From a virus: DNA of 43,353 bases. A model generated the notes under the pieces. The model did not search any database and was not told where the DNA came from. It was given only the letters and a program-made list of their open reading frames with translations. The position numbers were made by a program, and so were the translations under genes. This document shows positions 9,290 through 42,398 of this stretch, in pieces (positions within the stretch are counted from its first letter, which is position 1; every line of letters starts with the position of its first letter). The stretch lies in the IMG/VR virus record IMGVR_UViG_3300045996_000822, positions 1-43,353 of that record; one strand, written 5' to 3'.

Positions 9290-9318
9290 AGTATGCCAAC
9301 AAACAAGCGTTAGCACAA
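9290..9318 (-). promoter_or_regulatory. Putative promoter of the regulator operon
   Basis: On the minus strand, TTGTGC (9318-9313) and CATACT (9295-9290) are separated by 17 nt, a weak but acceptable sigma-70 match. The -35 overlaps the operator-like dyad at 9315-9330, which would allow autoregulation. The predicted transcript starts about 25 nt upstream of ATG 9258. Confidence 0.4.
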
Positions 9319-9330
9319 GCGAATTCTTGT
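9315..9330. promoter_or_regulatory. Operator-like dyad ACAAG-N6-CTTGT, copy 1
   Basis: ACAAG (9315-9319), six bases, CTTGT (9326-9330). Same half-sites and spacing as the dyads inside the promoters at 19376 and 42371, and closely related to those at 9356 and 15385. It lies between the divergent regulator and replication operons. Confidence 0.65.
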
Positions 9331-9355
9331 CCGCGAAAATATTTTGCGAAAATGC

Positions 9356-9384
9356 TTGATACAACCATTCGATTGTGCGATAGT
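9356..9384 (+). promoter_or_regulatory. Rightward early promoter with operator at its spacer
   Basis: -35 TTGATA (9356-9361), 17-nt spacer, -10 GATAGT (9379-9384). The spacer region holds ACAA-N8-TTGT (9361-9376), a degenerate version of the shared dyad. It would drive the replication operon beginning at 9431; AAGGAG (9419-9424) lies 6 nt before that ATG. Confidence 0.65.
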
Positions 9385-9430
9385 TTGATCCGCGTCAAAC
9401 GAAATCACCGAACTTTTTAAGGAGCACTAT

Positions 9431-9904
9431 ATGAGCATGGAAAACGCAATCCTCGAACTGGCTGCAGCGATCCGAGAACTGGCCGGCAGCGGCCAACGCA
9501 TCACCGGCATGGCTCCAGCCCTCGCCGCGCCCTGCGGCGCCGCCCATGTGGCGGTCAACGAAGTCTCGGCTCAGCAGCAAGCGGAGCAGCTGAAGCCTGA
9601 CGCCGAACTGGAAGAGGCCGTCCAGAAGGTGGAAGCTGCGGCCAAGGAAGAAAAGAAGGCCGACAAGCCGGTGCCGAAGAAGGAAGAAGTCAAAGCGGAA
9701 ACGAAAGTCGAAGAACCTGCGTCAGCCGCTGAAGCCATCGACTACAAGACCCAGGTTTATCCGAAGCTGGTCGAACTGGGCAAGGGCAAAGGCCGCGCTG
9801 CCGTTGTCGGCCTGCTGGCTGAATTCGATGCCAAGAACGGCGACCAGTTGAAGCCCGAGCAGTATTCGGCCGTGCTGGCGCGCGCTGCGGAACTGGTGGC
9901 CTGA
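9431..9904 (+). CDS. Hypothetical early protein, first gene of the replication operon
   Basis: This 157-aa protein starts at ATG 9431 after an ideal AAGGAG. It has three regions: a helical N-terminus (1-45), a Lys/Glu-rich low-complexity segment (~50-105, many KAE/KKE repeats), and a compact helical C-terminal domain (~108-157, YPKLVELGKGKGRAAVVGLL). Proteins of this plan precede recombination or ssDNA-handling genes in many phages, but I cannot name a function. The charged middle may be a flexible linker or nucleic-acid contact region. Confidence 0.75.
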   Translation: MSMENAILELAAAIRELAGSGQRITGMAPALAAPCGAAHVAVNEVSAQQQAEQLKPDAELEEAVQKVEAAAKEEKKADKPVPKKEEVKAETKVEEPASAAEAIDYKTQVYPKLVELGKGKGRAAVVGLLAEFDAKNGDQLKPEQYSAVLARAAELVA

Positions 9905-9906
9905 TC

Positions 9907-10101
9907 ATGGCTACCGCGATCATCACGATCACCGACTGCGAGGACGGCAGCGCCGCCCAGGTGTCGGTGAAGTTCGAGCCGCTGGGTGCTGACGAGAACA
10001 GCACGGCGCACGCCCTCGCGGCCATGGCCATCAACGCGATGACCACCGAGGAAGAACGCGAGGACGCCACCTACTCCGAAGGGATGTGCGGCCATGGCTG
10101 A
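9907..10101 (+). CDS. Small hypothetical protein (64 aa)
   Basis: Starts 3 nt after the preceding stop and overlaps the DUF2800 gene by 8 nt. The N-terminal half alternates beta-strand residues (TAIITITDC...QVSVKFEPL). The C-terminal half is one helix rich in Ala and acidic residues. No family was recognised; gene order places it with replication/recombination functions. Confidence 0.65.
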
Positions 10102-11599
10102 CCACGCGAAGCTCTCGCCGAGCAGCGCCCACCGCTGGCTGCGCTGCCCTGGCTCCGTGGCGCTCGAAGCCGGCTACCCGGACAAGGGCAGCGACTTTGC
10201 CGACGAGGGCACGGCGGCCCACTTCCTGGCGTCGGAATGCCTGGAGGGTGAGCACGATGCAGCGTTATTCATCGGGCAGCATATCCTCGTCGATGGCGGC
10301 GCAACGATGTGGGCCGGCCCGGAAGGTACGCACACCGTCGACCGCGAGATGGCCGGCCACGTCCAGAAGTACATCGACAAGGTGCGCGAGAACGCGGCCG
10401 GCGGCGAGCTGTTCGTCGAGCAGCGACTGCCGATCTTCGGCGGTTCGGGTGTCGACCAGTTCGGCACCAGCGACTCGGTGATCATTGTCGGCCGCCGGAT
10501 CGTCATCATCGATCTGAAGTACGGCAAGGGCGTGCAGGTGTTCGCCGAGGAGAACGAGCAGCTGATGCTTTACGCCCTGGGCGCGCTGGACGAGCACGGG
10601 CTGCTGCAGGAGTTCGACGAGGTGGTGCTCGCCATCCACCAGCCGCGCATCGACCATTACGACGAGTGGGTGACAACGCCGGCGGCGCTGCGCGAGTTCG
10701 AACAGCGGGCGATCGCCGGTGCCAAGGACGCTTTGCACATCGTCATCCCCGGCGCGCTGTCGCTGATCCCCGGTGAGAAGCAATGCCGGTTCTGCAAGGC
10801 GAAGGGTGGCTGCCCCGCGTTGCGCGACAAGGTGCTGGCCACGGTGGCGGGGGACTTCGAAGTGGTCACGGAATCCGGGGATCCCGCTGCACCCAACACC
10901 GTAACCGAAGCGTTGATCACCCTCGGCAAAGGCGAGGTGGCCGTCACGATCACCGAGGCCGAGAAGATCATCGCGGCGGCCCACGGGGTGGCGCCGAAGG
11001 CGGTGGATTTCCTGTACGGAGACTATCGGGACGAAAACACCCCCGGCTTGTCGGCTCACTTCGTCGTCAAGAAACCCACCATCCGCCCCGTGCTCGACGG
11101 CTACGAGCAGCGCATCACCGACATGGACGACGTGCACCTGGCGGCGGTGATGGAAGCGATCGACCTGCTCGAAGCCTTCCCCAAGGCGGTACGGGCGGAG
11201 GTCGAGCGCCGGCTGCTGGCCGACCGCCAGGTGCCAGGGTTCAAGTTGGTGCAGGGCAAGCAGGGCAACCGCCAATGGAATGACGAGGCGGGCGTCGAAG
11301 CTGAACTGAAGCGCATGCGCTTGAAGAAAGACGAGATGTACGACTTCGTGTTGATCTCGCCCACCACGGCCGAGAAGCGCGCCACCGAACTGGTCGACGG
11401 CAAGCCGGTGATCGGCGCGAAGCAATGGGCCAAGCTGCAGGCGTACATCACCCGCAACGAAGGCAAGCCCTCGGTGGCGCCGGCGGCCGACAAGCGGCCC
11501 GTGTGGACGCCGCCGAACGTGCTCGATGAATTTGACGAAATGACCGGTGGCGAAGATATCGCCTCGGGCGAAATGGACGACTTGTCCGACCTCATTTAA
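10094..11599 (+). CDS. DUF2800 family Cas4/RecB-like nuclease with Fe-S cysteines
   Basis: This 501-aa protein matches the phage DUF2800 family: N-terminal [15 protein letters not shown], then DEGTAAH, and the PD-(D/E)XK core [10 protein letters not shown] near residue 138. Four cysteines, C18 near the N-terminus and C231, C234, C240 in [10 protein letters not shown], are arranged like the iron-sulfur cluster of Cas4/AddB nucleases. It is expected to process DNA ends or ssDNA during replication-linked recombination. It is followed 15 nt later by the DUF2815 gene, a pairing seen in many phages with family A polymerases. Confidence 0.85.
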
Positions 11600-11614
11600 C
11601 TGAAAGGCAATACC

Positions 11615-12172
11615 ATGAAAATCAAACTGCAAAACGTCCGCCTGGCCTTCCCCAACCTGTTCAAGGCCACCACCGTGAACGGCGAAGGCGACCCGGCATT
11701 CTCCGCGTCGTTCCTGCTGGCGCCGAACGACCCGCAAATCAAGGTGATCGAGGCGGCCATCGCGCAGACCGCCAAGGACAAATGGGGCGCCAAGGCCGAC
11801 CAGGTGCTCAAGCAGATGCGCGCGGCCGACAAGACGGCGCTGCACGACGGCGACACGAAGAGCCAGTACGCCGGCTTCGAAGGCATGATGTTCGTGGCCT
11901 CGCGCAGCAAGACCCGGCCGCTCGTCATCGACCGCGACAAGTCGCCGCTGACCGAGGAAGATGGCAAGCCGTACGCTGGCTGCTACGTGAACTGCTCGCT
12001 GGAGCTGTGGGCCCAGGACAACAACTACGGCAAGCGCATCAACGCGCAACTGGGCGGCGTGCAGTTCTTGAAAGACGGTGACGCCTTCGCCGGTGGCGGC
12101 AGCGCGGCCGACGAGAACGACTTCGACGACCTGGGCGAAGGCGCCGACGCGGAAGACGACCTGCCGCTGTAA
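11615..12172 (+). CDS. DUF2815 family protein, likely ssDNA-binding
   Basis: This 185-aa protein begins MKIKLQNVRLAFPNLFKAT, which is characteristic of DUF2815. It contains YAGFEGMMFVASRS mid-protein and NCSLELWAQDN near residue 130, and ends in a strongly acidic tail (residues ~160-185). A conserved OB-like core with an acidic C-terminal tail parallels SSB proteins, so an ssDNA-binding role is likely though indirect. The stop codon overlaps the ATG of the next gene. Confidence 0.85.
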   Translation: MKIKLQNVRLAFPNLFKATTVNGEGDPAFSASFLLAPNDPQIKVIEAAIAQTAKDKWGAKADQVLKQMRAADKTALHDGDTKSQYAGFEGMMFVASRSKTRPLVIDRDKSPLTEEDGKPYAGCYVNCSLELWAQDNNYGKRINAQLGGVQFLKDGDAFAGGGSAADENDFDDLGEGADAEDDLPL

Positions 12173-12525
12173 TGGCCACCTACTCGCTACGCTGCCGCAA
12201 TTCGGCCTGCCGCCACCGGCGCGTGGCGAGTACCCACCCGGACGACTACAAGGTGGTGCCGCGCTGCCCCCGGTGCGGTGAGCGGCGCGGCTGGCGCATC
12301 GAGGACCGGGCCTACAACCGGCGCGGACTGTGCCACTGCAGCGGGCCGGAGATGGTGACCGGCCGGCATTTCCCGCACCGCCCCCACCATCCGCTATGCG
12401 ACAACCACCCGCATGGCTTTTACAACCAGGCGCGCGCCCGTGGCGTTGCGCATTCTGATATCCCGGAGGAATTTTGGCCGAAGAATGGAGAGCCGTGCCC
12501 GGCTACGAAGGGCGATACGAGGTAA
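12172..12525 (+). CDS. Zinc-finger-like hypothetical protein (117 aa)
   Basis: Start ATG overlaps the DUF2815 stop. The N-terminus has CRNSACRH and, 24 residues later, CPRCGE, which together can form a zinc ribbon. A His/Cys-rich middle (CHCSGPE, HFPHRPHHPLCDNHPHG) could bind a second metal. The last 17 residues overlap the start of the downstream HNH gene, so its C-terminus may have been replaced or extended when that gene inserted. Function unknown; the position implies a replication accessory. Confidence 0.65.
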   Translation: MATYSLRCRNSACRHRRVASTHPDDYKVVPRCPRCGERRGWRIEDRAYNRRGLCHCSGPEMVTGRHFPHRPHHPLCDNHPHGFYNQARARGVAHSDIPEEFWPKNGEPCPATKGDTR

Positions 12526-12986
12526 GTAATTTGGGCCGCGTGCGATCTTTAGACCACCGCGTGCGGGTTGTTTGCAAGGGCATCGAGACAACGCGCCTTT
12601 CGCCGGGAAAGATGCTGAAGCCCGGCGGCTCCGGCGAGTTCGGCCACGTGACGGTAGCGATCGGAAGGGGTAATTCTATCCCCGTGCACACGCTCGTAAT
12701 GCTGGCATTCGTGGGGCCGCGGCCAGCAGGGGCAGACGTTGCGCATAACAACGGGGACGCCGGCGACAACCGATTGGCGAACCTGCGCTATGCCACGCGC
12801 ACCAGCAACAATCAAGACATCTTTTACCATGGGCGCCGCCGCTGGACCCTAGCCGATATCCGCCGTATTCGCGCCGAGGCTGGGGCGTACCGCGGAGCCG
12901 GCCGCGATCTGGCGCGCGAGTACGGAGTAACCACGGGAACTATCAGCGCTATCTATACGCGAAGGAATTATGGCTATGTCGAGTAA
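12474..12986 (+). CDS. NUMOD4/HNH homing-type endonuclease
   Basis: This 170-aa protein has an N-terminal NUMOD4 motif (WRAVPGYEGRYEVSNLGRVRS, residues 5-25), then an HNH_3 nuclease core with AHNNGD and DNRLANLRYAT (~90-113), and a C-terminal HTH-like tail. The family cuts DNA site-specifically and spreads as free-standing homing genes. The start is TTG at 12474 with GGAGGA just upstream, inside the 3' end of the zinc-finger gene. Its 3' end overlaps the first codons of DNA polymerase. Insertion directly before a polymerase gene is typical of such elements. Confidence 0.85.
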   Translation: MAEEWRAVPGYEGRYEVSNLGRVRSLDHRVRVVCKGIETTRLSPGKMLKPGGSGEFGHVTVAIGRGNSIPVHTLVMLAFVGPRPAGADVAHNNGDAGDNRLANLRYATRTSNNQDIFYHGRRRWTLADIRRIRAEAGAYRGAGRDLAREYGVTTGTISAIYTRRNYGYVE

Positions 12987-15375
12987 GCTCTGGTTAGACG
13001 ACGAGACCTTTTCTCCCACCCCCATCACCAACGGCCTGCACCGCTACGCCGAGGACGTCGAGATCCTGATCCGCGCGCTGGCGCTGGATGACGGACCGGT
13101 GATAGTGCAGGATTGCACCCCAGGCGGGCTCATGTGGGAGCTGCGCGGCGATGATCTTATATCGCCGGACCTGGCCTACGTGCGCCAGGTCGACACCGCT
13201 TTGCGGCACAGCGATTGTGAAGTGTACGCCCACAACAGCCAGTTCGACAGGACTGTCGAGCGCTGGGCCGGCCTGCGCATCCCGCTGCACCGCTGGCGCA
13301 TCCCGCTGCACCGCTGGCGCGACACCATGGTGCAGGCGCTCGCGCACAGCCTGCCCGGCGCCCTGGGCGACTTGTGCGAGGTGCTGAAGCTGCCCACCGA
13401 CAAGGCCAAGGACAAGGCCGGCAAGGCCCTCATCCAGCTGTTCTGCAAGCCGGTGCCGTTCAAGTTCCGCAAGCGCGCGGAGGGCGAGAAGCTGGCCGAC
13501 TACAAGGCCGCGCGCGAAGCTGCAGAGAAGACCTGGAACGGCCGCGCCACGCGCGAAACGCACCCGGCCGAGTGGCACCAGTTCCTCCTGTACGCCGGCC
13601 GCGATATCGAGGCGATGCGCGCCGCGCACAAGATCATGCCGACCTGGAACTACCGCGGCGCCGAGCTGGAGCTGTGGCACCTGGACCAGACGATCAACGA
13701 CCGCGGCGTGGCCATCGACGTCGAACTGGCCGAGTGCGCGGTGAACGCGGTGGACGAGGCCCAGGCCCTGCTGCGCGAGCGCACGGCCGAGATCACGAAC
13801 GGCGAGGTGGAGTCGGCCACGAAGCGCGACGCCATGCTGGCCCACGTCCTGGCCGAGTACGGGGTGGAACTGCCTGACATGCAAATGGCCACGCTCGAGC
13901 GGCGCATCGCGGACCCGGACTTGCCCGAGGGCCTGCGCGAGCTGCTGCGCATCCGGCTGCAGGCGTCCACCACCAGCACCAGCAAGTACAAGACGCTGAT
14001 CAAGGGCACGTCCAGCGACGGCCGGCTGCGCGGCCTGCTGCAGTTCTGCGGCGCGGCGCGCACCGGGCGGTGGGCGGGCCGACTGTGGCAGCCGCAGAAC
14101 CTCCCCCGGCCCGTGCTCAAGCAGGACGAGATCGACGCCGGCATCGACGCGCTCAAGGCCGGCATGGCCAATGTCCTCTACGACAACGTGATGCAACTGA
14201 CGTCATCGGCGATCCGAGGGTGCATCATCGCGCCGCCCGGCAAGAAACTGGTGGTGGCCGACCTGTCGAATATCGAGGGCCGGGTGCTGGCCTGGCTGGC
14301 GGGCGAGCGGTGGAAGATCAAGGCGTTCGGGGAATACGACGCCGGCACCGGGCACGACCTGTACGCGCTGTCGTATGCCAAGTCCTTCGGCGTCACGCCC
14401 GAATCTGTGATGGAAGACAAGAAGGCCGGTGGCAGCCAGCGCCAGGTGGGCAAGGTGCAGGAGCTGGCGCTCGGCTACGAGGGCGGCGTCGGCGCGTTCG
14501 TCACGTTCGCCGCGGCGTACAACATCGATCTGGAGAAGCTGGCCGAGATCGGCTCGCGCGCCATCCCCGGCGAGGTGTGGGGCCGGGCGAACATCATGTA
14601 CGAATGGCACCAGAAGCAAGGCCGCCACCCGGACGCAGCACTCGGCCTGTCGAAGAAGGCATGGCTCACTTGCGAGTCGTTCAAGTTGGGCTGGCGCGAC
14701 GCCCACCAGAACGTGGTGCAGCTGTGGCGCGACCTGGACGCGGCCGTGCGCAGCGCCATCACCCGGCCGGGCGAGACGTTCATCGTCGGTGTGCTGCGCG
14801 TGCGGCGTGATGGCGCCTGGCTGCGCATCGTGCTGCCATCGGGCCGGGCACTCTGCTACCCGTCACCTGCGCTGGTGCCGGAGAAGAAAAAGCGCAAGAG
14901 CGACGAATGCCCCACGTGCGAGGGCGGGGGAATCGTGCAGGCGTTCGGGTGGCAGGGCGATATCGATCCCCAGGCGACACACCCGGAGGTCTGCTACACC
15001 TGCAAGGGTTCGGGGAAAATCGACTTGGGCGATCTGGATACAGATGTGAGCGGCGGCCGTACCGTCATCACCTACATGGGCGTCAACCAGTACAGCCGCA
15101 AATGGGACCGGCTCACCACCTACGGCGGCAAGCTGGTGGAGAACGTGACCCAGGCCGTGGCGCGCGACGTCATGGCGGCGAACATGCCGGCGATCGAGGC
15201 CGAGATGTACGAGATCGTGCTGACGGTGCACGACGAGATCATTTGCGAAGCACCCGAGCATGAGGACTGGAACCACGAGCACCTGGCCGCGTTGATGGCC
15301 ACGGTGCCGCCATGGGCCGCCGGCCTGCCGCTGGCCGCTGCGGGCTTCGAAGCAACACGATACCGCAAGGACTGA
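12970..15375 (+). CDS. DNA polymerase I (family A) with 3'-5' exonuclease and inserted zinc fingers
   Basis: The protein is about 800 aa. The N-terminal exonuclease has DDE at residues 10-12, an HNSQFD motif (~90) and YAGRDIE (~200). The polymerase domain has motif A VVADLSNIEGR (catalytic D431), motif B-like RQVGKVQELALGYEG (~490) and motif C VHDEI (D755). Between motifs B and C sit two DnaJ-type knuckles, CPTCEGGG (647-654) and CYTCKGSG (675-682). The exonuclease contains a tandem RIPLHRW duplication. Two ATGs are possible; 12976 has better spacing (9 nt) from AAGGA than 12970 (3 nt). It should be the phage replicative polymerase. Confidence 0.93.
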   Translation: MAMSSKLWLDDETFSPTPITNGLHRYAEDVEILIRALALDDGPVIVQDCTPGGLMWELRGDDLISPDLAYVRQVDTALRHSDCEVYAHNSQFDRTVERWAGLRIPLHRWRIPLHRWRDTMVQALAHSLPGALGDLCEVLKLPTDKAKDKAGKALIQLFCKPVPFKFRKRAEGEKLADYKAAREAAEKTWNGRATRETHPAEWHQFLLYAGRDIEAMRAAHKIMPTWNYRGAELELWHLDQTINDRGVAIDVELAECAVNAVDEAQALLRERTAEITNGEVESATKRDAMLAHVLAEYGVELPDMQMATLERRIADPDLPEGLRELLRIRLQASTTSTSKYKTLIKGTSSDGRLRGLLQFCGAARTGRWAGRLWQPQNLPRPVLKQDEIDAGIDALKAGMANVLYDNVMQLTSSAIRGCIIAPPGKKLVVADLSNIEGRVLAWLAGERWKIKAFGEYDAGTGHDLYALSYAKSFGVTPESVMEDKKAGGSQRQVGKVQELALGYEGGVGAFVTFAAAYNIDLEKLAEIGSRAIPGEVWGRANIMYEWHQKQGRHPDAALGLSKKAWLTCESFKLGWRDAHQNVVQLWRDLDAAVRSAITRPGETFIVGVLRVRRDGAWLRIVLPSGRALCYPSPALVPEKKKRKSDECPTCEGGGIVQAFGWQGDIDPQATHPEVCYTCKGSGKIDLGDLDTDVSGGRTVITYMGVNQYSRKWDRLTTYGGKLVENVTQAVARDVMAANMPAIEAEMYEIVLTVHDEIICEAPEHEDWNHEHLAALMATVPPWAAGLPLAAAGFEATRYRKD
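13276..13317 (+). repeat. 21-bp perfect tandem duplication in the polymerase gene
   Basis: 13276-13296 and 13297-13317 are identical and in frame, each encoding RIPLHRW just before RDTMVQAL in the exonuclease domain. Replication slippage is the simplest origin. The reading frame is kept, so the protein gains seven residues. Confidence 0.9.
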
Positions 15376-15384
15376 TAAAAGTAC

Positions 15385-15412
15385 TTGCACAAGTCTTTGG
15401 TTGTGCTATTAT
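15385..15412 (+). promoter_or_regulatory. Internal promoter with embedded operator
   Basis: -35 TTGCAC (15385-15390), 16-nt spacer, -10 TATTAT (15407-15412). GCACAA (15387-15392) and TTGTGC (15401-15406) form a perfect dyad that spans the spacer; one outer half-site base differs from the ACAAG-N6-CTTGT consensus. It starts 9 nt after the polymerase stop and drives the gene at 15445. The TATTATACGT...ATCG downstream segment is shared with the promoters at 19376 and 42371. Confidence 0.8.
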
Positions 15413-15444
15413 ACGTTCATCGCAACCCCTCTCGGAGATTCAAA

Positions 15445-15753
15445 ATGTACACCCAGGAAACCAAGGCCAAGTTACTGGCCGCGATGCCCGGCACGCGGGA
15501 AGAACTGCAGGTGAAGTCAGGACTGGCGAACAGCACGATCCGCGCGGTGACCAAGGCGCTGTTGCTGGCCGGCGAGTGCCACATCGGCGACTGGCAGCGC
15601 GGCGCGGGCCACAAGCCGCGCGGAGTGTACCAGCGCGGGCCGGGCAACAAGGCCAAGGTGCCGCGGTTCTTCGACCGACCCAAGGCCCAGCGCACTGGCG
15701 TGTGGCGCGACCCCCTGGTGGCGGCCCTGTTCGGCGAGGCCACCAAATGCTGA
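15445..15753 (+). CDS. Winged-helix-like DNA-binding protein (102 aa)
   Basis: First gene behind the operator-bearing promoter at 15385; ATG 15445 has GGAG 7 nt upstream. Residues ~15-50 (GTREELQVKSGLANSTIRAV, then a helix and GECHIGDW) read as a winged helix-turn-helix. The C-terminal half is basic, with an RGPGNKAKVPRFF segment. It may regulate phage or host transcription or act in replication. The specific role is inference from the fold only. Confidence 0.65.
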   Translation: MYTQETKAKLLAAMPGTREELQVKSGLANSTIRAVTKALLLAGECHIGDWQRGAGHKPRGVYQRGPGNKAKVPRFFDRPKAQRTGVWRDPLVAALFGEATKC

Positions 15754-15842
15754 CCGATCGCATGCTGCACCTCACCTTGGCCGCGCTGGTAGCTGTCGGC
15801 GCTATCCTTCTCACCGCCCTTATCGTATTGGAACTGCAATGA
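15747..15842 (+). CDS. 31-aa membrane peptide
   Basis: ATG 15747 overlaps the preceding gene's 3' end, and the TGA overlaps the VRR-NUC ATG (ATGA). Residues ~8-29 (LHLTLAALVAVGAILLTALI) form one transmembrane helix. It is too short for family assignment. The double coupling makes it a credible translated small protein. Confidence 0.5.
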   Translation: MLTDRMLHLTLAALVAVGAILLTALIVLELQ

Positions 15843-16165
15843 TCAAACCGAAAAAGATTCTCGAACGCGACGTCGAGAAGTACCTCGTCGAGCGCGCCAA
15901 GGCGCTAGGCGGCGAGTGCCGCAAGGTCAAATGGCTCGGCCGCAGCGGGGCGCCGGATCGGATCGTGATGCTGCCTTGGTTAAACCCCGCCAGCCCTGCG
16001 GAAGTTCGGCACACCGGCCCAACACAAACCATCTGGATCGAACTGAAGGCCCCCGGCAAGACGCCCGAGCCCCACCAGCTGCGCGAACACGAGCGCATGC
16101 GCAAGATGGGCCAGCGGGTGGAAGTGGTCGACAGCTTCGAACGTGTCGACGAGGTGCTGTCGTGA
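15839..16165 (+). CDS. VRR-NUC domain nuclease
   Basis: This 108-aa protein is a stand-alone VRR-NUC (PD-(D/E)XK superfamily). The active site is GAPDR (D40), IELK (E68, K70) and HQLREHERM (Q80), followed by a final VEVVDSFE strand. Family members are structure-specific nucleases, and stand-alone phage versions act on branched DNA such as Holliday junctions. It lies between polymerase and helicase genes, consistent with processing replication or recombination intermediates. Both ends overlap neighbours by 4 nt. Confidence 0.92.
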   Translation: MIKPKKILERDVEKYLVERAKALGGECRKVKWLGRSGAPDRIVMLPWLNPASPAEVRHTGPTQTIWIELKAPGKTPEPHQLREHERMRKMGQRVEVVDSFERVDEVLS

Positions 16166-16419
16166 GCGGCGGTTTCCGCCCCTGCCCTCCGCTTCCGCCC
16201 GATGTGGAAGAGGCGGCCCGTAAAGTGGAACGCTACATGGCAGAGCAAGGACTGGTTAGCTTCGGCGGCCTGTCCCTTCGCAAAGACGCAGAAGCCGGCA
16301 AGCGTTTGGCGCACGCCGTAATCGACCTGGTGAACTGTCGCGGCCGATACCACACGGAACAGAACTTCGAAAAGTTGAAAGCGGAATTGAAATACTACCT
16401 GTCCCGCGTCACGAAGTAG
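16162..16419 (+). CDS. Hypothetical protein (85 aa)
   Basis: The GTG start at 16162 overlaps the VRR-NUC stop (GTGA). A proline-rich N-terminus (RPCPPLPPDVEEAA) is followed by a helical, basic body. No motif was recognised. Gene order puts it in the replication operon. Confidence 0.6.
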   Translation: MSGGFRPCPPLPPDVEEAARKVERYMAEQGLVSFGGLSLRKDAEAGKRLAHAVIDLVNCRGRYHTEQNFEKLKAELKYYLSRVTK

Positions 16420-16430
16420 CAACACCCAAC

Positions 16431-16442
16431 CCTCTCGAAAGG
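16431..16442 (+). promoter_or_regulatory. Repeated 12-mer translation leader, copy 2
   Basis: CCTCTCGAAAGG, identical to the copies at 962-973, 32106-32117 and 32145-32156; its GAAAGG is 7 nt before ATG 16450. Confidence 0.6.
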
Positions 16443-16449
16443 AATCGCC

Positions 16450-19371: not shown

Positions 19372-19375
19372 ATGC

Positions 19376-19403
19376 TTACACAAGTCTTTACTTGTGCTAT
19401 TAT
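19376..19403 (+). promoter_or_regulatory. Internal promoter with embedded operator
   Basis: -35 TTACAC (19376-19381), 16-nt spacer, -10 TATTAT (19398-19403). The dyad CACAAGT-CTTT-ACTTGTG (19379-19396) fills the spacer and matches ACAAG-N6-CTTGT exactly at 19380-19395. It drives the PP-loop enzyme at 19435. Confidence 0.8.
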
Positions 19404-19434: not shown

Positions 19435-20133
19435 ATGCACGTAGTTGGCCTAAGCGGCGGCAAGGACTCGACGGCATTGGCCTTGCGCCTTGCCGAAGTG
19501 GAGCCGCGCGAATACACCTTCATTTGCAACACGACCGGCAACGAATTGCCCGAGATGCTGGACCACTGGAAGCGGCTCGAGGATATGCTCGGCGCCGAGA
19601 TCGTCCAGGTGCGGGCACACACGGATCTCGAGGGCTTGATCGCCGAGCAGAACATGCTGCCCAACGTATTCGCCCGCTGGTGCACGCGCATCCTGAAAAT
19701 CGAGCCAACCATCGCATTCATGGAAAGCCTGCCGGACGACTCGACCCTGTACGTCGGCCTGCGGGCCGACGAGGAGGTGCGCCGCGGCATCTACGGCGAA
19801 GACATGAAAATCCGCTTTCCGATGCGCGAGTGGGGATGGAAAGAAGAGGACGTCTGGAAGTACCTCGATTCGCGCGGCGTGTGCATCCCGGAGCGTACTG
19901 ATTGCGCATGGTGCCCTTACCAGCGCCTCGGCGAATGGCGTAGCCTTTATCAGAAATACCCGACCATCTACATGCGCGGCGCCGAGATCGAGCGGGAGCA
20001 AGGCCACACGTTCAGGTCGCCGGGGCGTGACACCTGGCCCGCCGACCTGGATTCCCTGGCCAGGGACTTTGACGCCGGCCGCAAGCTGCGTGAGTTCAAG
20101 CGCGCGACTACTTGCCGCGTCTGCTCGCTGTAA
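19435..20133 (+). CDS. PAPS-reductase/PP-loop family enzyme
   Basis: This 232-aa protein has the PP-loop SGGKDS at residues 7-12, which binds ATP-type substrates, and a FARWCTRILK motif (~82-91) common to phage and DndC-like PAPS-reductase-family proteins. Two later cysteine pairs, CAWCPYQ (~160) and CRVCSL at the extreme C-terminus, could hold a metal or Fe-S cluster. The family activates sulfate or performs adenylation-dependent sulfur transfer. No dnd genes or base-modification genes are visible nearby, so the substrate is unknown. It has its own operator-bearing promoter and ribosome-binding site (GGAG, 7 nt upstream). Confidence 0.85.
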   Translation: MHVVGLSGGKDSTALALRLAEVEPREYTFICNTTGNELPEMLDHWKRLEDMLGAEIVQVRAHTDLEGLIAEQNMLPNVFARWCTRILKIEPTIAFMESLPDDSTLYVGLRADEEVRRGIYGEDMKIRFPMREWGWKEEDVWKYLDSRGVCIPERTDCAWCPYQRLGEWRSLYQKYPTIYMRGAEIEREQGHTFRSPGRDTWPADLDSLARDFDAGRKLREFKRATTCRVCSL

Positions 20134-20181: not shown

Positions 20182-20382
20182 ATGCTTGAATCTTACATTT
20201 GGCTGGGCGTCGTGCTCATCCTTTATTTCGCACCGACGTTCGCGGCCCCGGCTGGCCGGCGCGGCTCGGTGTTCGTCATCAATCTGTTTTTCGGCTGGAC
20301 GCTGATCGGGTGGGCGGTGGCGCTGTTCGTCGCCATCCGCGCGAAAGAAGCGGCCGAGCAGCGCGCGAAAGGGGGTGCGTGA
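20182..20382 (+). CDS. Superinfection immunity (Imm-like) membrane protein
   Basis: This 66-aa protein has two transmembrane helices: ~5-22 (YIWLGVVLILYFAPTFAA) and ~33-52 (FVINLFFGWTLIGWAVALFV). The second carries the signature N-F-GWT-IGW-AL of the superinfection immunity family related to T4 Imm, which blocks DNA entry by later phages at the inner membrane. The tail is charged and Ala-rich. Expression from the 19376 promoter would place it early, as expected for exclusion. Confidence 0.8.
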   Translation: MLESYIWLGVVLILYFAPTFAAPAGRRGSVFVINLFFGWTLIGWAVALFVAIRAKEAAEQRAKGGA

Positions 20383-32687: not shown

Positions 32688-32757
32688 TTTGTTGCTCTCC
32701 TGTGATAAAGCCCGCTCGCACCATGCGATACGGGCGGGCTAGAAGCTCACCTGTATT

Positions 32758-34583: not shown

Positions 34584-36238
34584 GCAAATTTCCTCAGTTG
34601 ACGCGGCTTCACTACCGTAGACTCATACGCCCCGATCGCAAATGCTGCACGGTAACGGCGGCCGGATGCGTCCTTGAGTTTGTATCCCACGAACTTTCCG
34701 GCGCCGATCAGCGGCGAATCAGGGCGAGGCCGGCGGGTGACCGCGTCAAGCTTCGGATCGACGCCAACACGAGTATCCGCCGAAAGCGTATGCCCAAACG
34801 TGCCTGCCGGGAAGTCATTGATGAATCCGTTTGTCGCCCCGTTCCACGTCCGATTGGTGTAGAAGCTGTAACCGAGCCCCTGCCCTGGCGCACCTTTGGC
34901 GACGTAATTGGAAACCTGTACGTTGTTCGACAGGGTAGCGCTCGAAGACATATACAGGAAGTAATCTTTTACGTTGGTGGCCGTGATGCCCGATATCTGC
35001 ATGCTGGCCTTATTACCGGTGTTTCCGATAAAGATAACCGTCTTGACGTTGTCCGCGTCAATCCCGCTGATCACGAAATTGATGGGGTTTTGCAGCGACA
35101 GGAACACGGCGCCGCTGTTCACACGGGCGGGGTTGCCGGTCACGTTTCGCGCGTAGATACCTTCGAAGCGGCAGTCGTAGCAATTGATATCGGCCAGCAG
35201 TACGCATCCATCGATGTTTGGAGTGTGCAGGCCGTCGACCCACAGACATTTACCCCGCAGGTCCGGGTAGCCTTCCACGTCGAAGTCAGCTTGTTTGCCG
35301 AGGTATGAGCCCCACAGCAAGTCGCACATGCCGGCGTCGCCGCTGATGTTTTTCCCGTACACGGGCCCGATGAGGTTCGGGCCAAAGCCTGGCGTTGTCG
35401 ACGGGCCAAAGCCGGAGATAAATACCGCCCCGCCAAAGAATGACCCCGTAGTCGCCGTTTGCGCCGTGCAGTTTTCGCAACGAATGTTCTCCGTAATGAT
35501 GCCGGTGCTCCATCCTGGCGTGCCGACAGGCACCAGGGCCGGATCGCTCGTTGGACCGGGAACTTCTACGTCGATAGCCACACCGCTGTAGTTCTTGAAC
35601 GTCAGATTGCGGAATACGAGATCTTGCGCGCGCGGCGTACCGTACCCGAAGAACGTGATGACGCCGCGGCCGGCGATGTAATTTTCGAAGCCGCAATCTT
35701 CAACGGTGATTCGATACAGCCCCGCCACTTGGCCGTCGCTTGGCCGCCACACCATTGCTCCTACCGTCGAGTTGGCCGGCAGGGCGTCGGGCTGGGTGAA
35801 CTTCTTGATCCGTGCAAATCGGTAGTTCGTATGGTTACCGGGGTTTTCCAACACGATCGAGCGCATTTCGTTGCCGTCGATCAGAACGAAATTCACTGCC
35901 GTAGCTGCCAAGCGGAGCGTCGAAATGCGATTGAAGTTTCTGATGACGATGTTGGGCCGTACGTTGTAGACGTACGAACCTGCCGCGGCAAGGCTCTCGC
36001 CATTGAAATCTACAATGGCCCTGTTCGATTCGCTCGTACCCGTAGGTGAAGGAATCGAAAAGAGGGTCGTCCACGTATCCCATCCGGCGCCCGGGACAAC
36101 GTTGAGCACATCGCCGCCGCTCCATCGGCCCGTGCCAACTATCGTATCCGTGCCGAAAATCCAGGGCTTTTCTTTCGAGCCGTTGCGCCCACTCGCGGGC
36201 GCAAAAGCTGCTGACCCGACGATGTAAAAATCAGCCAT
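34580..36238 (-). CDS. Right-handed beta-helix protein in the head module
   Basis: This 552-aa protein begins MADFYIVGSAAFAPASGRNG. Successive short strand-turn repeats of N, G, V, I and F follow (~95-480, for example NIVIRNFNRIS, VLIDGNEM, ITVEDCGFENYIAG), as in parallel beta-helix pectate-lyase-like folds. The C-terminus has SPLIGAG and FAIGAYES, a signature that ends many such repeat proteins. ATG 36238 has AAGGGG upstream. It lies between capsid-region genes and the connector, an unexpected place for a tailspike. Polysaccharide binding or cleavage, or a head fibre, is inferred. Confidence 0.75.
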   Translation of the reverse strand: MADFYIVGSAAFAPASGRNGSKEKPWIFGTDTIVGTGRWSGGDVLNVVPGAGWDTWTTLFSIPSPTGTSESNRAIVDFNGESLAAAGSYVYNVRPNIVIRNFNRISTLRLAATAVNFVLIDGNEMRSIVLENPGNHTNYRFARIKKFTQPDALPANSTVGAMVWRPSDGQVAGLYRITVEDCGFENYIAGRGVITFFGYGTPRAQDLVFRNLTFKNYSGVAIDVEVPGPTSDPALVPVGTPGWSTGIITENIRCENCTAQTATTGSFFGGAVFISGFGPSTTPGFGPNLIGPVYGKNISGDAGMCDLLWGSYLGKQADFDVEGYPDLRGKCLWVDGLHTPNIDGCVLLADINCYDCRFEGIYARNVTGNPARVNSGAVFLSLQNPINFVISGIDADNVKTVIFIGNTGNKASMQISGITATNVKDYFLYMSSSATLSNNVQVSNYVAKGAPGQGLGYSFYTNRTWNGATNGFINDFPAGTFGHTLSADTRVGVDPKLDAVTRRPRPDSPLIGAGKFVGYKLKDASGRRYRAAFAIGAYESTVVKPRQLRKFA

Positions 36239-36248
36239 GCTCAGCCCC

Positions 36249-37301
36249 TTAGGTAAAGTCGCCCACAGCGCGCAGCCGTACACCGGCCTCGGTGGTCAAG
36301 CGCCAGCCCGCTTGGTAGCTGCGGAACTGGCAGTCCCATTGCATCGCCGCCGCCGTCATGCCGTTAGGAATCAACTCCCACACGTAACGGCGGTCCTCGA
36401 TGACGAACGCCACCCCGGTGCCGGGCGCCGCGCTCAGCGCACGATCCAAGGTGTACGTGTTCACCGCGTTGGCGGCAAAAGCCGTGTGCGTCAGGATGCG
36501 CCGGTATTCGCCGCCGACCTTCAGCAAAGAACCTTTGTACTGGTCTGCGGTCACCGCGGCTGGGTTTGTCGCGGTGTTGATGACGGTCGTAGTGCTGGCC
36601 GTGCTGGCGTGAGTGATGAGCGACAAGGAAGGCGCCGTCACGCCGTCGCGAATGACTACCTGGCTCTTGGTCGAGTCGGTGATGTAGACGTCGAGGTGAT
36701 GCAGGAAATCGCCAGCGGCACCGGTCACCCCGAGCAGCGTGTCGAGCATACCGGACTGCACCGCGAGCACTTGGTCCGCACCGTTGGCGACTGCTTGCCA
36801 GTCGCGATCCTGATTCTCGCCGGCCGCCAGGGTCGCGCTCGAAGTGAAGACCGGGGCCGCGTCGACCGAGCCCGCCACCACTCCCGCTTTGACGGTCAGT
36901 GTGCCGAAGGTGACGTTAAAACGCACTTTCGTATCGACAACGAAAACGCCCACCGTCGACAGCCCCGCGAGCAGCGGGGTGGAGCTGGCCACGGTGCCGT
37001 CCGGGTTGAGCACTTCCCGGGTCCCCGCGATATCGGAGCTGGCATTCACCCCCAGGCTCACGCCCGAGGGCACGGTCAGGGTGTCCGTTTGCCCGGCCAG
37101 CAGAGTGCGATTCGCGGGCAGATTGGTGCCGGAAGACAGGCCGGAGCCCGTCCCCGGCTGGAATGCCGGTGCACCACCCGTCAAGTCCGTGGTGGCGTTC
37201 AGGCCCGCGATCAGTTGCGTGGCGATGGCGTCGTCGACCGTGATGATCGATTGCGGCTTGTAGCCGTTGTACGTGGACAGCAGGCGGATGGTGGTTGCCA
37301 T
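36249..37301 (-). CDS. Putative head decoration/fibre protein (350 aa)
   Basis: Starts MATTIRLLSTYNGYKPQSII with a short N-terminal domain (~1-50) that resembles the base of small head proteins. A long Thr/Ser/Ala/Val-rich beta region follows (~60-300) and a C-terminal domain with tryptophans (VWELIPNGMTAAAMQWDCQF). No enzyme motif. It immediately follows the 94-aa head gene with overlap and precedes the beta-helix gene by 10 nt. The three may form one surface structure on the capsid. The role is inferred from position. Confidence 0.55.
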   Translation of the reverse strand: MATTIRLLSTYNGYKPQSIITVDDAIATQLIAGLNATTDLTGGAPAFQPGTGSGLSSGTNLPANRTLLAGQTDTLTVPSGVSLGVNASSDIAGTREVLNPDGTVASSTPLLAGLSTVGVFVVDTKVRFNVTFGTLTVKAGVVAGSVDAAPVFTSSATLAAGENQDRDWQAVANGADQVLAVQSGMLDTLLGVTGAAGDFLHHLDVYITDSTKSQVVIRDGVTAPSLSLITHASTASTTTVINTATNPAAVTADQYKGSLLKVGGEYRRILTHTAFAANAVNTYTLDRALSAAPGTGVAFVIEDRRYVWELIPNGMTAAAMQWDCQFRSYQAGWRLTTEAGVRLRAVGDFT

Positions 37302-37585
37302 TATTTAGCCTTCGCGGTGGATTTCGTGCTGCCTTTGTTGCTCGGCGCGGCGTCCATCTTGTTCTCCACTTCGCCGTCCATCTTGGCGTCGCCGAGCAGA
37401 TCGTCGACGTCGCCATCCGCTTGGGGGGTCGGTGCGGCCTCCTGCGGCACGGCGCCCTGGTCGGCGGCCAAGCCGGCTTTCACCAGGTCTTCGGCTTCGC
37501 CCTTCGTCACTTCCAGTTCGTCGCCAGCGTGAGCATGCACGCGGCCGTGCATGAAGCTGGTGGTGGCCGTTACTTTCGTTTTCAT
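37301..37585 (-). CDS. Small head-associated protein (94 aa)
   Basis: ATG 37585 gives MKTKVTATTSFMHGRVHAHA. An N-terminal beta-type domain (HAHAGDELEVTKGEAEDLVKAG) resembles the compact domains of small phage structural proteins. The C-terminal half is Asp/Ala/Lys-rich and disordered. It follows the major capsid gene. A decoration or stabilising role is possible. Confidence 0.6.
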   Translation of the reverse strand: MKTKVTATTSFMHGRVHAHAGDELEVTKGEAEDLVKAGLAADQGAVPQEAAPTPQADGDVDDLLGDAKMDGEVENKMDAAPSNKGSTKSTAKAK

Positions 37586-37632
37586 CGTGTTCTCCAATCC
37601 TGTGAAAGTGGCGGCCGGAGCCGCCACGGTGA

Positions 37633-38805
37633 TTAGGCCGGGAAGGTGCCTTTGATGCGCGCTTCGGGGCGGTAGTCGGCCAGCGCCAGGCGTTCTTCCG
37701 CCAGGATGGTCACACGGTTGTTCACGAAGTCGTCTTCGTTTTCCGTCGACACCACGACGTTCGCATCTTCGCGGTCGAAGATCTGCGCGGACTGGCGGAA
37801 GTTACCGGCCAGGAACGAATTAGCGGTCATCGCCAGCGTGGTGACGATGCGACGGCCCCACAGGGTCGCGGCCAGGTTGCCTTGCGGATTGCCGATGATG
37901 TAACGGCCCTGGGTGTCCTTGAGCAGTTCGATCTTCGCCCAGTCCTGCGGGTGCAACACGGCGGCGTCGGCCGGCAGCAGCGCCAGCTCGCCTTGCAGGA
38001 AGGCCAGGCGCAGGCGGTCGATGGCCGTTTCGCCAGTTACATCGAACGGGGAGACGAACGCAGAGGCCGTGGTGTAGATGCCGGACAGGTTGTTGCCCAC
38101 GCCCGAGCCCATCAGCAGCTGCAGGTCTTCGACGTAGTCCAGGCCGTAGCGCAGACGCTGGTCGATCATCGACTGCAGGGCCGGGGCGTCGTCCAGGATC
38201 TCGGTAGTGGCCTTGATGAAGTGGGCCAGCTTGATGACCTTGGCGTCGCGCTGTTCGAACGTCAGGTTCGATTCCGGCTTGCGCGTGCCTTCAGCCACCG
38301 GGGCGGCGTTGTTCGTGAAGACCAGTTCGCGGAAATACTGGATCAGCGTGGCATTCGTGCGGCCGGGGGCCAGCAGATCGCGCACCGTGGCCGGGCGCTG
38401 GGGCAGGGCGATCACGCCGTCGCGGCGATCCGGACCCACCAGGGTGCCGGCCGATGCGCTCAGGCTGGTGATCGCCTTGACGTCCACGCGCAGCATCTCG
38501 CCGCGCTTCTGCTCCACGCCGCCGGCGGTGAAGTTCTTGAACTGCTCGGATTCGATGAACTTGTAGCCGGCCGTGTCGGGGGTCTGTTTCTCGGCGCCGC
38601 CGCGGCGGGCCATCTTCTGCAGCAGGTCGTCGAGCTCAGCGCGCGCGGCCGACTGCTTGGTCATCAGGTCGTCGACCTGTTCCTTGACGCCTTCGGTCAT
38701 CTTGATGCCGCGTTGGGCTTCGTGGATGGCCTTCTCGGCTTGTTCGCGTACGGAATCGGTCAGCTTGTCGACCGCTTCTTTGATTTGGGTAATTTCAAGA
38801 GACAT
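37633..38805 (-). CDS. Major capsid protein, HK97 fold
   Basis: This 390-aa protein has an N-terminal ~70-100 residue helical delta-like scaffold domain (ITQIKEAVDKLTDSVREQAE) that the adjacent protease would remove. The HK97 core follows: residues ~130-150 with RPATVRDLLAPGRTN, an E-loop/spine region near VFTNNAAPVAEGTRKPES, and a C-terminal AEERLALADYRPEARI typical of this capsid family. Gene order portal-protease-capsid confirms it. Fusion of the scaffold to the capsid subunit explains the absence of a separate scaffold gene. Confidence 0.95.
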   Translation of the reverse strand: MSLEITQIKEAVDKLTDSVREQAEKAIHEAQRGIKMTEGVKEQVDDLMTKQSAARAELDDLLQKMARRGGAEKQTPDTAGYKFIESEQFKNFTAGGVEQKRGEMLRVDVKAITSLSASAGTLVGPDRRDGVIALPQRPATVRDLLAPGRTNATLIQYFRELVFTNNAAPVAEGTRKPESNLTFEQRDAKVIKLAHFIKATTEILDDAPALQSMIDQRLRYGLDYVEDLQLLMGSGVGNNLSGIYTTASAFVSPFDVTGETAIDRLRLAFLQGELALLPADAAVLHPQDWAKIELLKDTQGRYIIGNPQGNLAATLWGRRIVTTLAMTANSFLAGNFRQSAQIFDREDANVVVSTENEDDFVNNRVTILAEERLALADYRPEARIKGTFPA

Positions 38806-38825
38806 GGTTTTTCCTCGGGGTGAGA

Positions 38826-39485
38826 TTAGGTTTTGCTGCGGATATGGTCCAGCAGCGATTTCAGTTCGTCGCTTTGTTCGCCACCGGGCTCACCCCGGGA
38901 AAGCTTCGACAGGCCACCATTTGCGACGAGCGCGGCCTGTGATTTTGAGAACCCTGCCTCCCGCAGGAAATCCTCGAATTCTCGTACTGTCGGCACCCGG
39001 CCAGCGGCCAGCATGCTCTTGACGTCCGCCACGCGGGCGTCGTCGTTCATCGGGTTGGTGACCACGCTGATCTCCACCAAGTCCAGCTTTTGCAACGTGT
39101 AGACCCCGGTTTCCTTGTTGACGCTGTAATCCTTGACGCGGTAACCGATCGACAGGCCGGTGATCGCCTTCGACTTCATGCCCCGGTGTGCCAGGCGCGC
39201 GTATGGCGCGTCATCCAGCCACAGCGACGCCGTGCCGAGCAGGCCGTGGTCGTCTTCCTTGAGGTCTTCCCACGCGCCGATTGGCTGGTCCGGCTGGTGC
39301 TGCCACAGCACCGGCACCGTGCGGCCGTTCTTCTGCCACGTGGCCAGGCTCTCGGCGAACGCGCCGGGCGCGACGATATCGCCTCCCTTGTCCACCACGT
39401 TGAACACGGAGCCGTAACCGGAGAAATTACCGGCATCGGTAAGGCTTTTGAGCTCGAGCTCGATGGACTTGTGCAGGACGGTCAT
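38826..39485 (-). CDS. Prohead maturation protease, HK97 type (U35)
   Basis: This 219-aa protein begins with a strand-rich start (LELKSLTDAGNFSGYGSVFN). It then has the catalytic His region VLWQHQPDQPIG (~57-68) and the Ser region ITGLSIGYRVKDY (~106-118). A VEISVVTNPMNDDA segment (~133-146) and a helical C-terminus follow. It cleaves the capsid delta domain during maturation. It overlaps the portal gene by 4 nt and ends 20 nt before the capsid gene. Confidence 0.94.
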   Translation of the reverse strand: MTVLHKSIELELKSLTDAGNFSGYGSVFNVVDKGGDIVAPGAFAESLATWQKNGRTVPVLWQHQPDQPIGAWEDLKEDDHGLLGTASLWLDDAPYARLAHRGMKSKAITGLSIGYRVKDYSVNKETGVYTLQKLDLVEISVVTNPMNDDARVADVKSMLAAGRVPTVREFEDFLREAGFSKSQAALVANGGLSKLSRGEPGGEQSDELKSLLDHIRSKT

Positions 39486-40783
39486 TGCTGTTCCTCGGGG
39501 GTATCTTGCGCGATTGTATCATTCTGCGCGGTACTGGTGATTTTTCCTACCATATCGAGCGGGATCATGTTGGATTGCATGTAAAGCATGTCGCCGCCCG
39601 GCAACGGCTCCAGGTTCTCCAGGCCGCGGCAGAAGTTCGGGGTATATACCCCGCCCTTGATCATCTTGTCGTAGAAGTTGGCCCGGCTCGCGCTGTCCAT
39701 GCTGAGCATCTTCTCACGGCCGAACTCGGCAAAATACCGCGCGCGCTCGCCCGGCGCAATCAACCACTTGGCGATGCTCTGCTCGATCATGGTCAAGTCC
39801 GGGTCGAGCACCTCTTGCAGAAACCCGAGATTCTGTTGCTCGCGGCCGGTGCCCCAGTTCGATACCGCGGTGCCGTGTCCGATCTTCGACGGCGGAACAC
39901 CGAACCAGCGGCAGATATCCTCGACGCTGGCGTTCAGCTGCTCCATCATCTGCGCGTCGATCGGGTTGATCGTGAGCTGCTGGAACTTGGCATTGCCTTC
40001 CAGGAGGTACATGCGGCCGAGCGCGGCATCGCCGAACACTCCGTCGAGCAGCTTGGCCTTCATCTGCGTGCGCTGGTCCGGCTCGAGGATCGGCTCGATC
40101 GACACCACCCCGGAAGGGCGCATGCCGCCGCCGAACAAACGGGTGGCAGCGTCGCCCACGCCGTTTGCCCGCGCCAGCGAGCGCCAGCCCACACCAATCG
40201 GCGACAGACCGGTGAGCCCGTCCTCGCTCACACCCATCAGGTGCCACACCTCGTCCTCGCTGTACACCTCGCGCCCGCGCGGATCCGCGTAGACGTACTC
40301 TCGCGCGCCGGCGGTGTTGCGGCGAACCGTCATCAAGGCGGGGTCGAGCGGGTCGAGCGCGGTGATGCGCCGGCCGGCCTTGGCCTTCAGCGCGTAGAAG
40401 TTGCCCCACAGGCAGAGGCGCCAGGACACCAGGCGGCGGAATTCGAAAGCGGTCTGGTCAGCGTTGGGGGAGTCATGCAGGAGGGCGTACAGCGGGTGTT
40501 CTCGGGCAATGCGGCGTGTCTCGCGGCCACCGGTTTCGGTGCGTTCGTAGACGAACAGCGGCATGACGGCGATCTGGTTGGAGATCAGCTTGACGCAGGC
40601 CCACACCGTGGACAGCTGCAGGGCGCGGTCGACGCGCGGCGCGCGGTCCGTGTCGGGGTAACTGCCGCTGGTGATATCGCGGTTACCCGGGTCGCGGTCC
40701 ATTTCGCGGAGAGATAAGGCGGCACGAAGCGAGCCGTAGATCGCTTTCAGCGAAAACCGGCTGGCCTTATTCTTTTCCGTCAT
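39482..40783 (-). CDS. Portal protein, HK97 type
   Basis: This 433-aa protein has the family pattern: LSTVWACVKLISNQIAVMPL (~57-76), DQTAFEFRRLVSWRLCLWGN (~105-125), EVWHLMGVSEDGLTGLSPI (~185-203) and a long C-terminal stem region (NWGTGREQQNLGFLQEVLDP). It forms the dodecameric ring through which DNA enters and leaves. It overlaps the terminase large subunit by 4 nt (ATGA), a normal arrangement for packaging genes. Confidence 0.94.
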   Translation of the reverse strand: MTEKNKASRFSLKAIYGSLRAALSLREMDRDPGNRDITSGSYPDTDRAPRVDRALQLSTVWACVKLISNQIAVMPLFVYERTETGGRETRRIAREHPLYALLHDSPNADQTAFEFRRLVSWRLCLWGNFYALKAKAGRRITALDPLDPALMTVRRNTAGAREYVYADPRGREVYSEDEVWHLMGVSEDGLTGLSPIGVGWRSLARANGVGDAATRLFGGGMRPSGVVSIEPILEPDQRTQMKAKLLDGVFGDAALGRMYLLEGNAKFQQLTINPIDAQMMEQLNASVEDICRWFGVPPSKIGHGTAVSNWGTGREQQNLGFLQEVLDPDLTMIEQSIAKWLIAPGERARYFAEFGREKMLSMDSASRANFYDKMIKGGVYTPNFCRGLENLEPLPGGDMLYMQSNMIPLDMVGKITSTAQNDTIAQDTPEEQQ

Positions 40784-42363
40784 GCTTCCGCCAAGTAATC
40801 ATCCCAGGTCCGTTTCTTCTCTTCCGGTGCCTCTTGCGGCATCACGCCCACCGCTATGGCCAGCGCCACCATACCGTCGATCCGGCCGCGCGCCGTTTTC
40901 TTGTCGAACTTGCGCGCGCCGCTGTCGCCTACCACCTTGGCGTTCGCCGCGCACATGGTGAGCACCGGGTGGTTGCCGTGTTTCAGCTGGCCTTCCAGCA
41001 GTTTGACTTCCAAATCGCGCAGGGCCGGCGTCATCGACGCGGTGCCTTGGCCGAACTCGACGAACCGGTCTAGCTCTGCCTGGGAGAATAACGGCTTTTT
41101 GGTTTGACTGTCTTCCCGCTTGAGCCATTCCATCAAAAACGCCATCAAATACCGGTCAAAACCGAACAATTGAACGTCGAATTCATCGAAAATCTTGCGC
41201 AAATATAACGCCACATGGCGGTATTGTATAGCTTTTCCGGGCGTTGTTTGCAAGAATCCTTGTTCGTGCCACACGTCATACGGTACTTTATCGGCCTTGG
41301 ATCGCTCCCGCAGGCCCTCTTCAGGCAGCCAAAAGTAGGAGAAAACACCCCCATCGGTGGCGTCTACAAGCACTGCGGCCGTCAAATCGCTGACGCTGGA
41401 AAGGTCCAAACCCCCATAAACCTTGCGTTTCGGCCTTGCCGCCGGCGTTTCGCCGTTGGCCTGCCAGATCGAACGGGAGATGAAAGGCGCGGTGGCCTCC
41501 ACCCGCTGGTTCAGGTTGAGCCACCTGAACTCTGGTTCGAATGACGGCGTGTCGATCGCCTTACGCGCCAGCTTGCGCATGTCGGCCAAGGACCGGAATA
41601 CGCCCAAGGCCGGATTCGAACGTGCCCACTCGGCTTCGTCATCCATTGGCGTGTCTTCCACCGTACCATCGGGCAGCGTACGCTGCAGCGGCGTGGTGTA
41701 GACGTGGCAGACCACGTGCGGGTCCGGGTTCCGGGCCTGATTATCGATCATGATCGACAGCATGTCGGCATCGGTCGGTGCCTGTGTCGAGATGATGATC
41801 TTGAGCCCGTCCTCATAGGCGCCCTGGGCGGTTTCCAGTGCGGTGTAGAAGTCGTTCGACGGCCCTTTGATCTGTCCCGCCTCATCAAAAATGATGACGT
41901 AAGGCGACAAACCGTGCTTTGTCTTGGCCTCCGCCGACAGGGCGGCGAACTTCACGTTGCGCGACAAACCCACCAGGCGCTTGCCGGACGGCATAGCGCG
42001 GCACCGGTTCGACAGGTCCGGATTCAGGTTGATCATCTTCTCGGCCAGCTCGTACACCACCGCCGCCTGGTCCTTGGCCAGAGCCCCGCTCACCACCTGG
42101 GAATTCTGCCGTGCCTCGGGACCAACAAGGAAGGCTAGCAGCAGCGCGGCAATCAACGCGGTCTTGCCGTTCTTACGGCCGATGCAGAGGATCGCAGTGT
42201 GCGTGCCGTGCGGGTTGTCGAACACGGCGAGGATGAAGTCTTTCTGGAACTGCTCCAGCACCATGGGCTGCCCCATGAGTTTCCCCTCGGGCACGATGCA
42301 ATACTTCTCGATGAACGCGATTACGCGCTCGCCGCGGGTCAACTTTTTTCGGGCAATCGTCAT
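40780..42363 (-). CDS. terL: Terminase large subunit
   Basis: This 527-aa protein begins MTIARKKLTRGERVIAF. It has an N-terminal ATPase with Walker A GRKNGKT (~61-67) and Walker B VIIFDEAGQ (~152-160), and a C-terminal nuclease domain beginning GGLDLSSVSDLTA (~325). This is the HK97/lambda-like Phage_Terminase family. ATG 42363 was chosen over an extended start at 42417, since the extension would be coded by the plus-strand promoter/operator sequence. Its Shine-Dalgarno is weak. It cuts concatemeric DNA and pumps it into the prohead. Confidence 0.95.
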   Translation of the reverse strand: MTIARKKLTRGERVIAFIEKYCIVPEGKLMGQPMVLEQFQKDFILAVFDNPHGTHTAILCIGRKNGKTALIAALLLAFLVGPEARQNSQVVSGALAKDQAAVVYELAEKMINLNPDLSNRCRAMPSGKRLVGLSRNVKFAALSAEAKTKHGLSPYVIIFDEAGQIKGPSNDFYTALETAQGAYEDGLKIIISTQAPTDADMLSIMIDNQARNPDPHVVCHVYTTPLQRTLPDGTVEDTPMDDEAEWARSNPALGVFRSLADMRKLARKAIDTPSFEPEFRWLNLNQRVEATAPFISRSIWQANGETPAARPKRKVYGGLDLSSVSDLTAAVLVDATDGGVFSYFWLPEEGLRERSKADKVPYDVWHEQGFLQTTPGKAIQYRHVALYLRKIFDEFDVQLFGFDRYLMAFLMEWLKREDSQTKKPLFSQAELDRFVEFGQGTASMTPALRDLEVKLLEGQLKHGNHPVLTMCAANAKVVGDSGARKFDKKTARGRIDGMVALAIAVGVMPQEAPEEKKRTWDDYLAEA

Positions 42364-42370
42364 AATTTGC

Positions 42371-42398
42371 TTGCACAAGTTTTTACTTGTGCTATTAT
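42371..42398 (+). promoter_or_regulatory. Plus-strand promoter with embedded operator between terminase genes
   Basis: -35 TTGCAC (42371-42376), 16-nt spacer, -10 TATTAT (42393-42398). The longest dyad of the set, GCACAAGT-TTTT-ACTTGTGC (42373-42392), has perfect 8-bp arms. It starts 8 nt upstream of the terL start codon on the opposite strand and drives the two genes at 42432-42818. Confidence 0.8.

Follow-up and report, generated by a model that had tools for sequence, protein, structure and literature searches.

Dyad-bearing promoters dispersed through an uncultured phage genome and the Cro-like protein that likely reads them

The operators of phage 434 have the form ACAA-N6-TTGT and span 14 bp; the recognition helix of the 434 repressor and Cro starts with TQQ, and the half-site is ACAA. 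The C1 repressor of phage P1 has operators at many scattered promoters, and these operators are asymmetric. In SPbeta, an integrated prophage, a single repressor, the tyrosine-recombinase-fold protein MrpR, binds a short repeated element (SPBRE) present in about ten promoters across the phage genome (PMC10516654). The repressor of the L5/TipsytheTRex mycobacteriophages has more than one DNA-binding domain and many dispersed operators and stoperators; these sites are asymmetric 13-mers, bound by monomers, and many lie outside promoters (PMC9283540).

The window analysed here is a virus record of 43.35 kb (IMGVR_UViG_3300045996_000822, uncultured phage), encoding an HK97-type terminase and a siphovirus-like tape measure. 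One sequence element, a 16-bp dyad, was found at several unlinked promoters. The candidate reader is a small HTH protein of the Cro/YdaS/P22_Cro type, whose gene is divergent from the early operon, with dyads between the two. As with SPbeta MrpR, one element stands at several scattered promoters; unlike that system, the protein is a Cro/YdaS-type HTH protein, the phages have no detectable integrase and the dyads lie inside the -35/-10 spacer. Dispersed sites and a candidate single reader with more than one DNA-binding domain recall L5, but the window sites are symmetric 16-bp dyads and all five are located in promoters, and thus they are not L5-type stoperators. Scattered operators under one regulator are common to P1 C1, whereas the symmetric sites and the protein family differ. 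The TQQ helix start and the ACAA half-site are shared with 434, whereas the element is ACAA-N8-TTGT (16 bp), and base contacts are proposed by analogy only. The C-terminal HTH sequence, predicted fold and divergent placement are like those of Cro from Xfaso 1 (3BD1), XPH1 (5W8Y) and N15 (2HIN, 6ON0); those proteins carry a single HTH, whereas members of this regulator family have between one and three and go with a dispersed regulon. Literature searches returned no earlier description of this regulon.

Promoters and dyads in the window

The first-pass annotation had placed the dyad at four plus-strand promoters and, as a fifth copy, over the putative promoter of the regulator gene. All five sites were confirmed, each an exact match to the core ACAA-N8-TTGT; the -35 and -10 hexamers of the four promoters were correct when re-read in the sequence, and the fifth copy does overlap the -35 TTGTGC of the regulator promoter. 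The features are as follows.

8794-9258, minus strand: regulator, 154 aa, three HTH motifs, Cro/YdaS-like
9290-9318, minus strand: putative regulator promoter, as read from the sequence; -35 TTGTGC (9318-9313), 17 nt, -10 CATACT (9295-9290)
9315-9330: dyad ACAAGCGAATTCTTGT, presumed operator for autoregulation; overlaps the regulator promoter at its -35
9356-9384, plus strand: early (replication operon) promoter, TTGATA-17-GATAGT, with dyad ACAACCATTCGATTGT (9361-9376) in the spacer
12970-15375, plus strand: DNA polymerase A gene, the query for finding relatives
15385-15412, plus strand: post-polymerase promoter, TTGCAC-16-TATTAT, with dyad ACAAGTCTTTGGTTGT (15389-15404), 14 nt past the polymerase stop
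15445-15753: cargo of the 15385 promoter, a 102-aa protein, possibly with a winged HTH
19376-19403, plus strand: post-helicase promoter, TTACAC-16-TATTAT, with dyad ACAAGTCTTTACTTGT (19380-19395), directly past the helicase stop
19435-20133: cargo of the 19376 promoter, PP-loop/PAPS-reductase-like
20182-20382: cargo of the 19376 promoter, superinfection-immunity-like (Imm)
40780-42363, minus strand: terL
42371-42398, plus strand: promoter TTGCAC-16-TATTAT, with dyad ACAAGTTTTTACTTGT (42375-42390), heading two small ORFs
42432-42818, plus strand: cassette of two ORFs (58 aa and 69 aa) in the gap between terL and the presumed terS, inverted relative to both
42821-43303, minus strand: presumed terS

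The exact sites, starting at 9315, 9361, 15389, 19380 and 42375, are spread over 33 kb. In each of the four plus-strand promoters the dyad occupies the spacer between -35 and -10; it extends into the -35 and stops 2 nt short of the -10. The early operon starts at 9431 on the plus strand and is faced divergently by the regulator gene; the dyads at 9315 and 9361 lie between them, and the same layout is present in relatives.

In a scan of the window, the pattern originally suggested, with two mismatches allowed, was found 10 times against 10.28 expected, which is no enrichment, and the core was redefined. The window contains 6 exact copies of ACAA-N8-TTGT, whereas 1000 dinucleotide shuffles gave 0.26 on average and never more than 3; the core was picked after inspecting the five sites, so that this figure is somewhat optimistic and the independent test lies in the relatives. 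With spacers of N0 to N19 other than N8, the same half-sites were absent from the window, and the combination of the dyad, GC and a -10-like hexamer was present 4 times, compared with 0 in 1000 shuffles. The sixth exact match, at 41907-41922 within terL, is probably due to chance.

Several observations concern the genes behind these promoters. The PP-loop protein (19435-20133) matches SspD in PADLOC (9e-44) and PAPS reductase in Pfam, and may act in DNA modification or counter-defence. The cassette in the terL/terS gap (42364-42818) has its own plus-strand promoter, with transcription running against the late operon, and its 58-aa product has homologs in unrelated phages. The leader past the -10 (ACGTACATCGACAACG..ACTTAGGA; window 42399-42425, L021 3015-3045) is near-identical in Bcep781. 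Bcep1, Bcep43 and BcepNY3 have the leader too; in all of these records it occurs once and lacks the dyad.

Conservation of the promoters among related phages

The polymerase of the replication block is approximately 63-65% identical to its counterparts in Bordetella phage BPP-1 and two metagenome contigs. Alignment of four polymerases identified 80 relatives in IMG/VR; the regulator alone as a query identified none, and the relatives were reached only through the polymerase alignment. Regulator homologs were present at the same position in L024, L025, L026, L030 and L069/L076/L083 (tblastn 1e-16 to 1e-25). In L024, L025, L026 and L030, dyad promoters lie directly past the polymerase stop and at the post-helicase place, as in the window, and L030 has one additional dyad promoter between these two.

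The relatives were scanned with a matrix that omitted each phage's own sites. A site 5-17 nt past the polymerase stop was present in 5/6 distinct regulator-bearing phages (scores 17-25) and in 0/38 of the regulator-less relatives (maximum score 9.1). The split corresponds to ~6e-6 (hypergeometric, calculated by hand), a value that is optimistic given the kinship among the phages. The regulator-bearing L069/L076/L083 showed no post-polymerase site, and no such dyad sites were found in the polymerase relatives BPP-1 and L015. In L015 the regulator is of another kind, HTH_3 (4338-4631), and another dyad, GCAACAT/ATGTTGC, stands close to its gene as well as at the early promoter (6120-6180); the layout is the same as in the window and the specificity is different. 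Scans with whole cassettes against viral contigs and bacterial genomes returned nothing, or single unrelated copies, and a short-query search with the post-helicase cassette gave no match in INPHARED phages or PLSDB plasmids. The co-occurrence of regulator homologs and dyad promoters in related phages lends comparative support to the earlier proposal of a dispersed regulon.

The promoter copies were also compared with each other. Copies within one genome have a mean identity of 80% over 50 nt, whereas copies at the same place in different genomes are 53% identical, no more than copies at different places in different genomes (53%). The copies thus evolve in concert within genomes. Eight L030-type phages each carry three copies of the 25-nt promoter core, identical at 25/25 positions, and the first gene behind the identical promoters differs among many of these phages. 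The suggestion that the promoters are copies of one cassette holds in part. Their sequence is homogenised genome by genome, but the post-polymerase and post-helicase promoters have counterparts at equivalent places in relatives; with positions conserved between phages, they are not simple recent copies.

The regulator and its recognition helix

The regulator had Pfam matches above the cut-off to YdaS (2e-22) and P22_Cro (1.8e-10), and no CI-type C-terminal domain was found in the Pfam search. Its top PDB matches by both sequence and structure were Cro of Xfaso1 and N15, the structural matches having Foldseek E-values above 0.05. The AlphaFold (AF2) model contains three HTH units with a mean pLDDT of 86. 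The description as a triple-HTH protein is correct for the window, but this is not a defining trait, as the number of HTHs varies from one to three among homologs. Only the C-terminal HTH (residues ~86-132, recognition helix TQQAV) is common to all of them.

The first base of the half-site was examined in relation to this helix. In the TQQ phages (the window, L024 and L025), the base is A in 22/22 halves. Independent TQQ/SQQ regulators of other phages have ACAA..TTGT dyads near their own genes, with A in 18/20 halves. In the TRQ phage L030 the base is G in 5/8 halves, and the remaining three, with A, lie in the -35; L026 (TTQ) has mixed half-sites. Analogy with the 434 repressor would assign the reading of A1 to the first glutamine of TQQ. 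The change from Q to R may be a single evolutionary event, since the phages with TRQ are closely related to each other. Both regulator-proximal and dispersed sites agree with the recognition helix, and the sites differ where the helix differs. This match, together with the co-occurrence with dyad promoters, supports the choice of the 8794-9258 protein as the factor.

The N-terminal HTH behaves differently in one group. In seven L030-type phages (L121, L123-L128; genes at ~9450-10400 of the respective loci) the regulators share 96-98% identity except in a stretch of 21-23 residues spanning this HTH, where identity has a mean of 33% and a minimum of 14%; the flanking DNA is nearly identical on both sides. 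The TRQ phages were searched for a target of the hypervariable HTH in their early control region, and spacer differences there do not track the HTH type. We tentatively suggest a regulator with two reading heads, a reading that we hold somewhat less probable than its negation: the constant C-terminal HTH would run the lytic promoter network, which evolves in concert within each genome, and the N-terminal HTH, swapped wholesale among phages that are otherwise nearly identical, would have a private specificity directed, for example, against rival phages or against an antagonist from the host or a phage.

Mode of action and competing explanations

The arrangement most probably represents a Cro-type regulon for early-promoter shut-off with autoregulation, in which the dyads are putative operators of the 8794-9258 regulator. 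The C-terminal HTH would read ACAAG-N6-CTTGT as a dimer, or via two heads. Bound on the -35/-10 spacer, the regulator would keep RNA polymerase off the early promoter as well as the internal promoters heading accessory-gene slots past the polymerase, past the helicase and between terS and terL. Through the copy that overlaps the -35 of its own promoter it would also limit its own production. The dyad geometry makes exclusion of RNA polymerase the likely mode of action. What the sequences show is the sites with their geometry and conservation, their occurrence alongside the regulator and their covariation with the recognition helix; binding, repression and timing are what we infer from these.

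An unlikely alternative is that the same operators and regulator serve a temperate phage that does not integrate or whose sequence was assembled incompletely, the regulator acting as its CI-type prophage repressor and the dispersed genes being silenced in lysogeny. The layout resembles the operators of SPbeta MrpR or the L5 repressor (PMC10516654, PMC9283540), a divergent regulator and early promoter are typical of immunity regions, and an Imm-like gene belongs to the regulon. However, the window and 12 regulator-bearing relatives all lack a detectable tyrosine integrase (PF00589) (0/13; contigs may be incomplete), and the same search was positive in 4/4 full-length, temperate regulator-less relatives tested, namely BPP-1 and three others. 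The protein is, moreover, Cro/YdaS-like, with the CI-type C-terminal domain not found. A search of the window alone for a serine recombinase (PF00239) was likewise negative. The missing integrase favours early shut-off over lysogeny but does not prove that the phages are virulent, as contigs may be incomplete. Cro-type shut-off of early promoters later in a lytic infection is the most likely reading over lysogeny maintenance because no integrase is detectable.

It is quite improbable that the dyads are part of the promoter signal for a phage or host activator, or for the polymerase itself, with the regulator incidental. The conserved unit does run past the dyad and takes in the -10 as well as the leader, and Bcep781-like phages have a similar leader that lacks the dyad; against this, the dyads co-occur with the regulator and covary with its recognition helix, and one copy overlaps the -35 of the regulator promoter. 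The idea that the dyads arose by chance, or by recent duplication of a single promoter, and have no regulatory meaning can be dismissed almost entirely: the three cassette promoters of the window are alike through the leader and within-genome copies are more alike than same-place copies in other genomes, but the shuffle test, the conservation of positions in diverged phages (with the 5/6 and 0/38 counts in strong contradiction) and the identical copies in eight genomes despite differing first genes all speak against it.

Dispersed operators are known from a few temperate phages, and the present case is a conserved network in an uncultured phage clade without detectable integrase. The Cro-like protein is likely the reader of this network, so that widely separated genes would be switched off together. 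As the promoters are constant and the first genes change, the network looks like a plug-in system that puts accessory genes under phage control. The natural Q-to-R/A-to-G change and the hypervariable second HTH make the specificity and evolution of the regulator directly testable.
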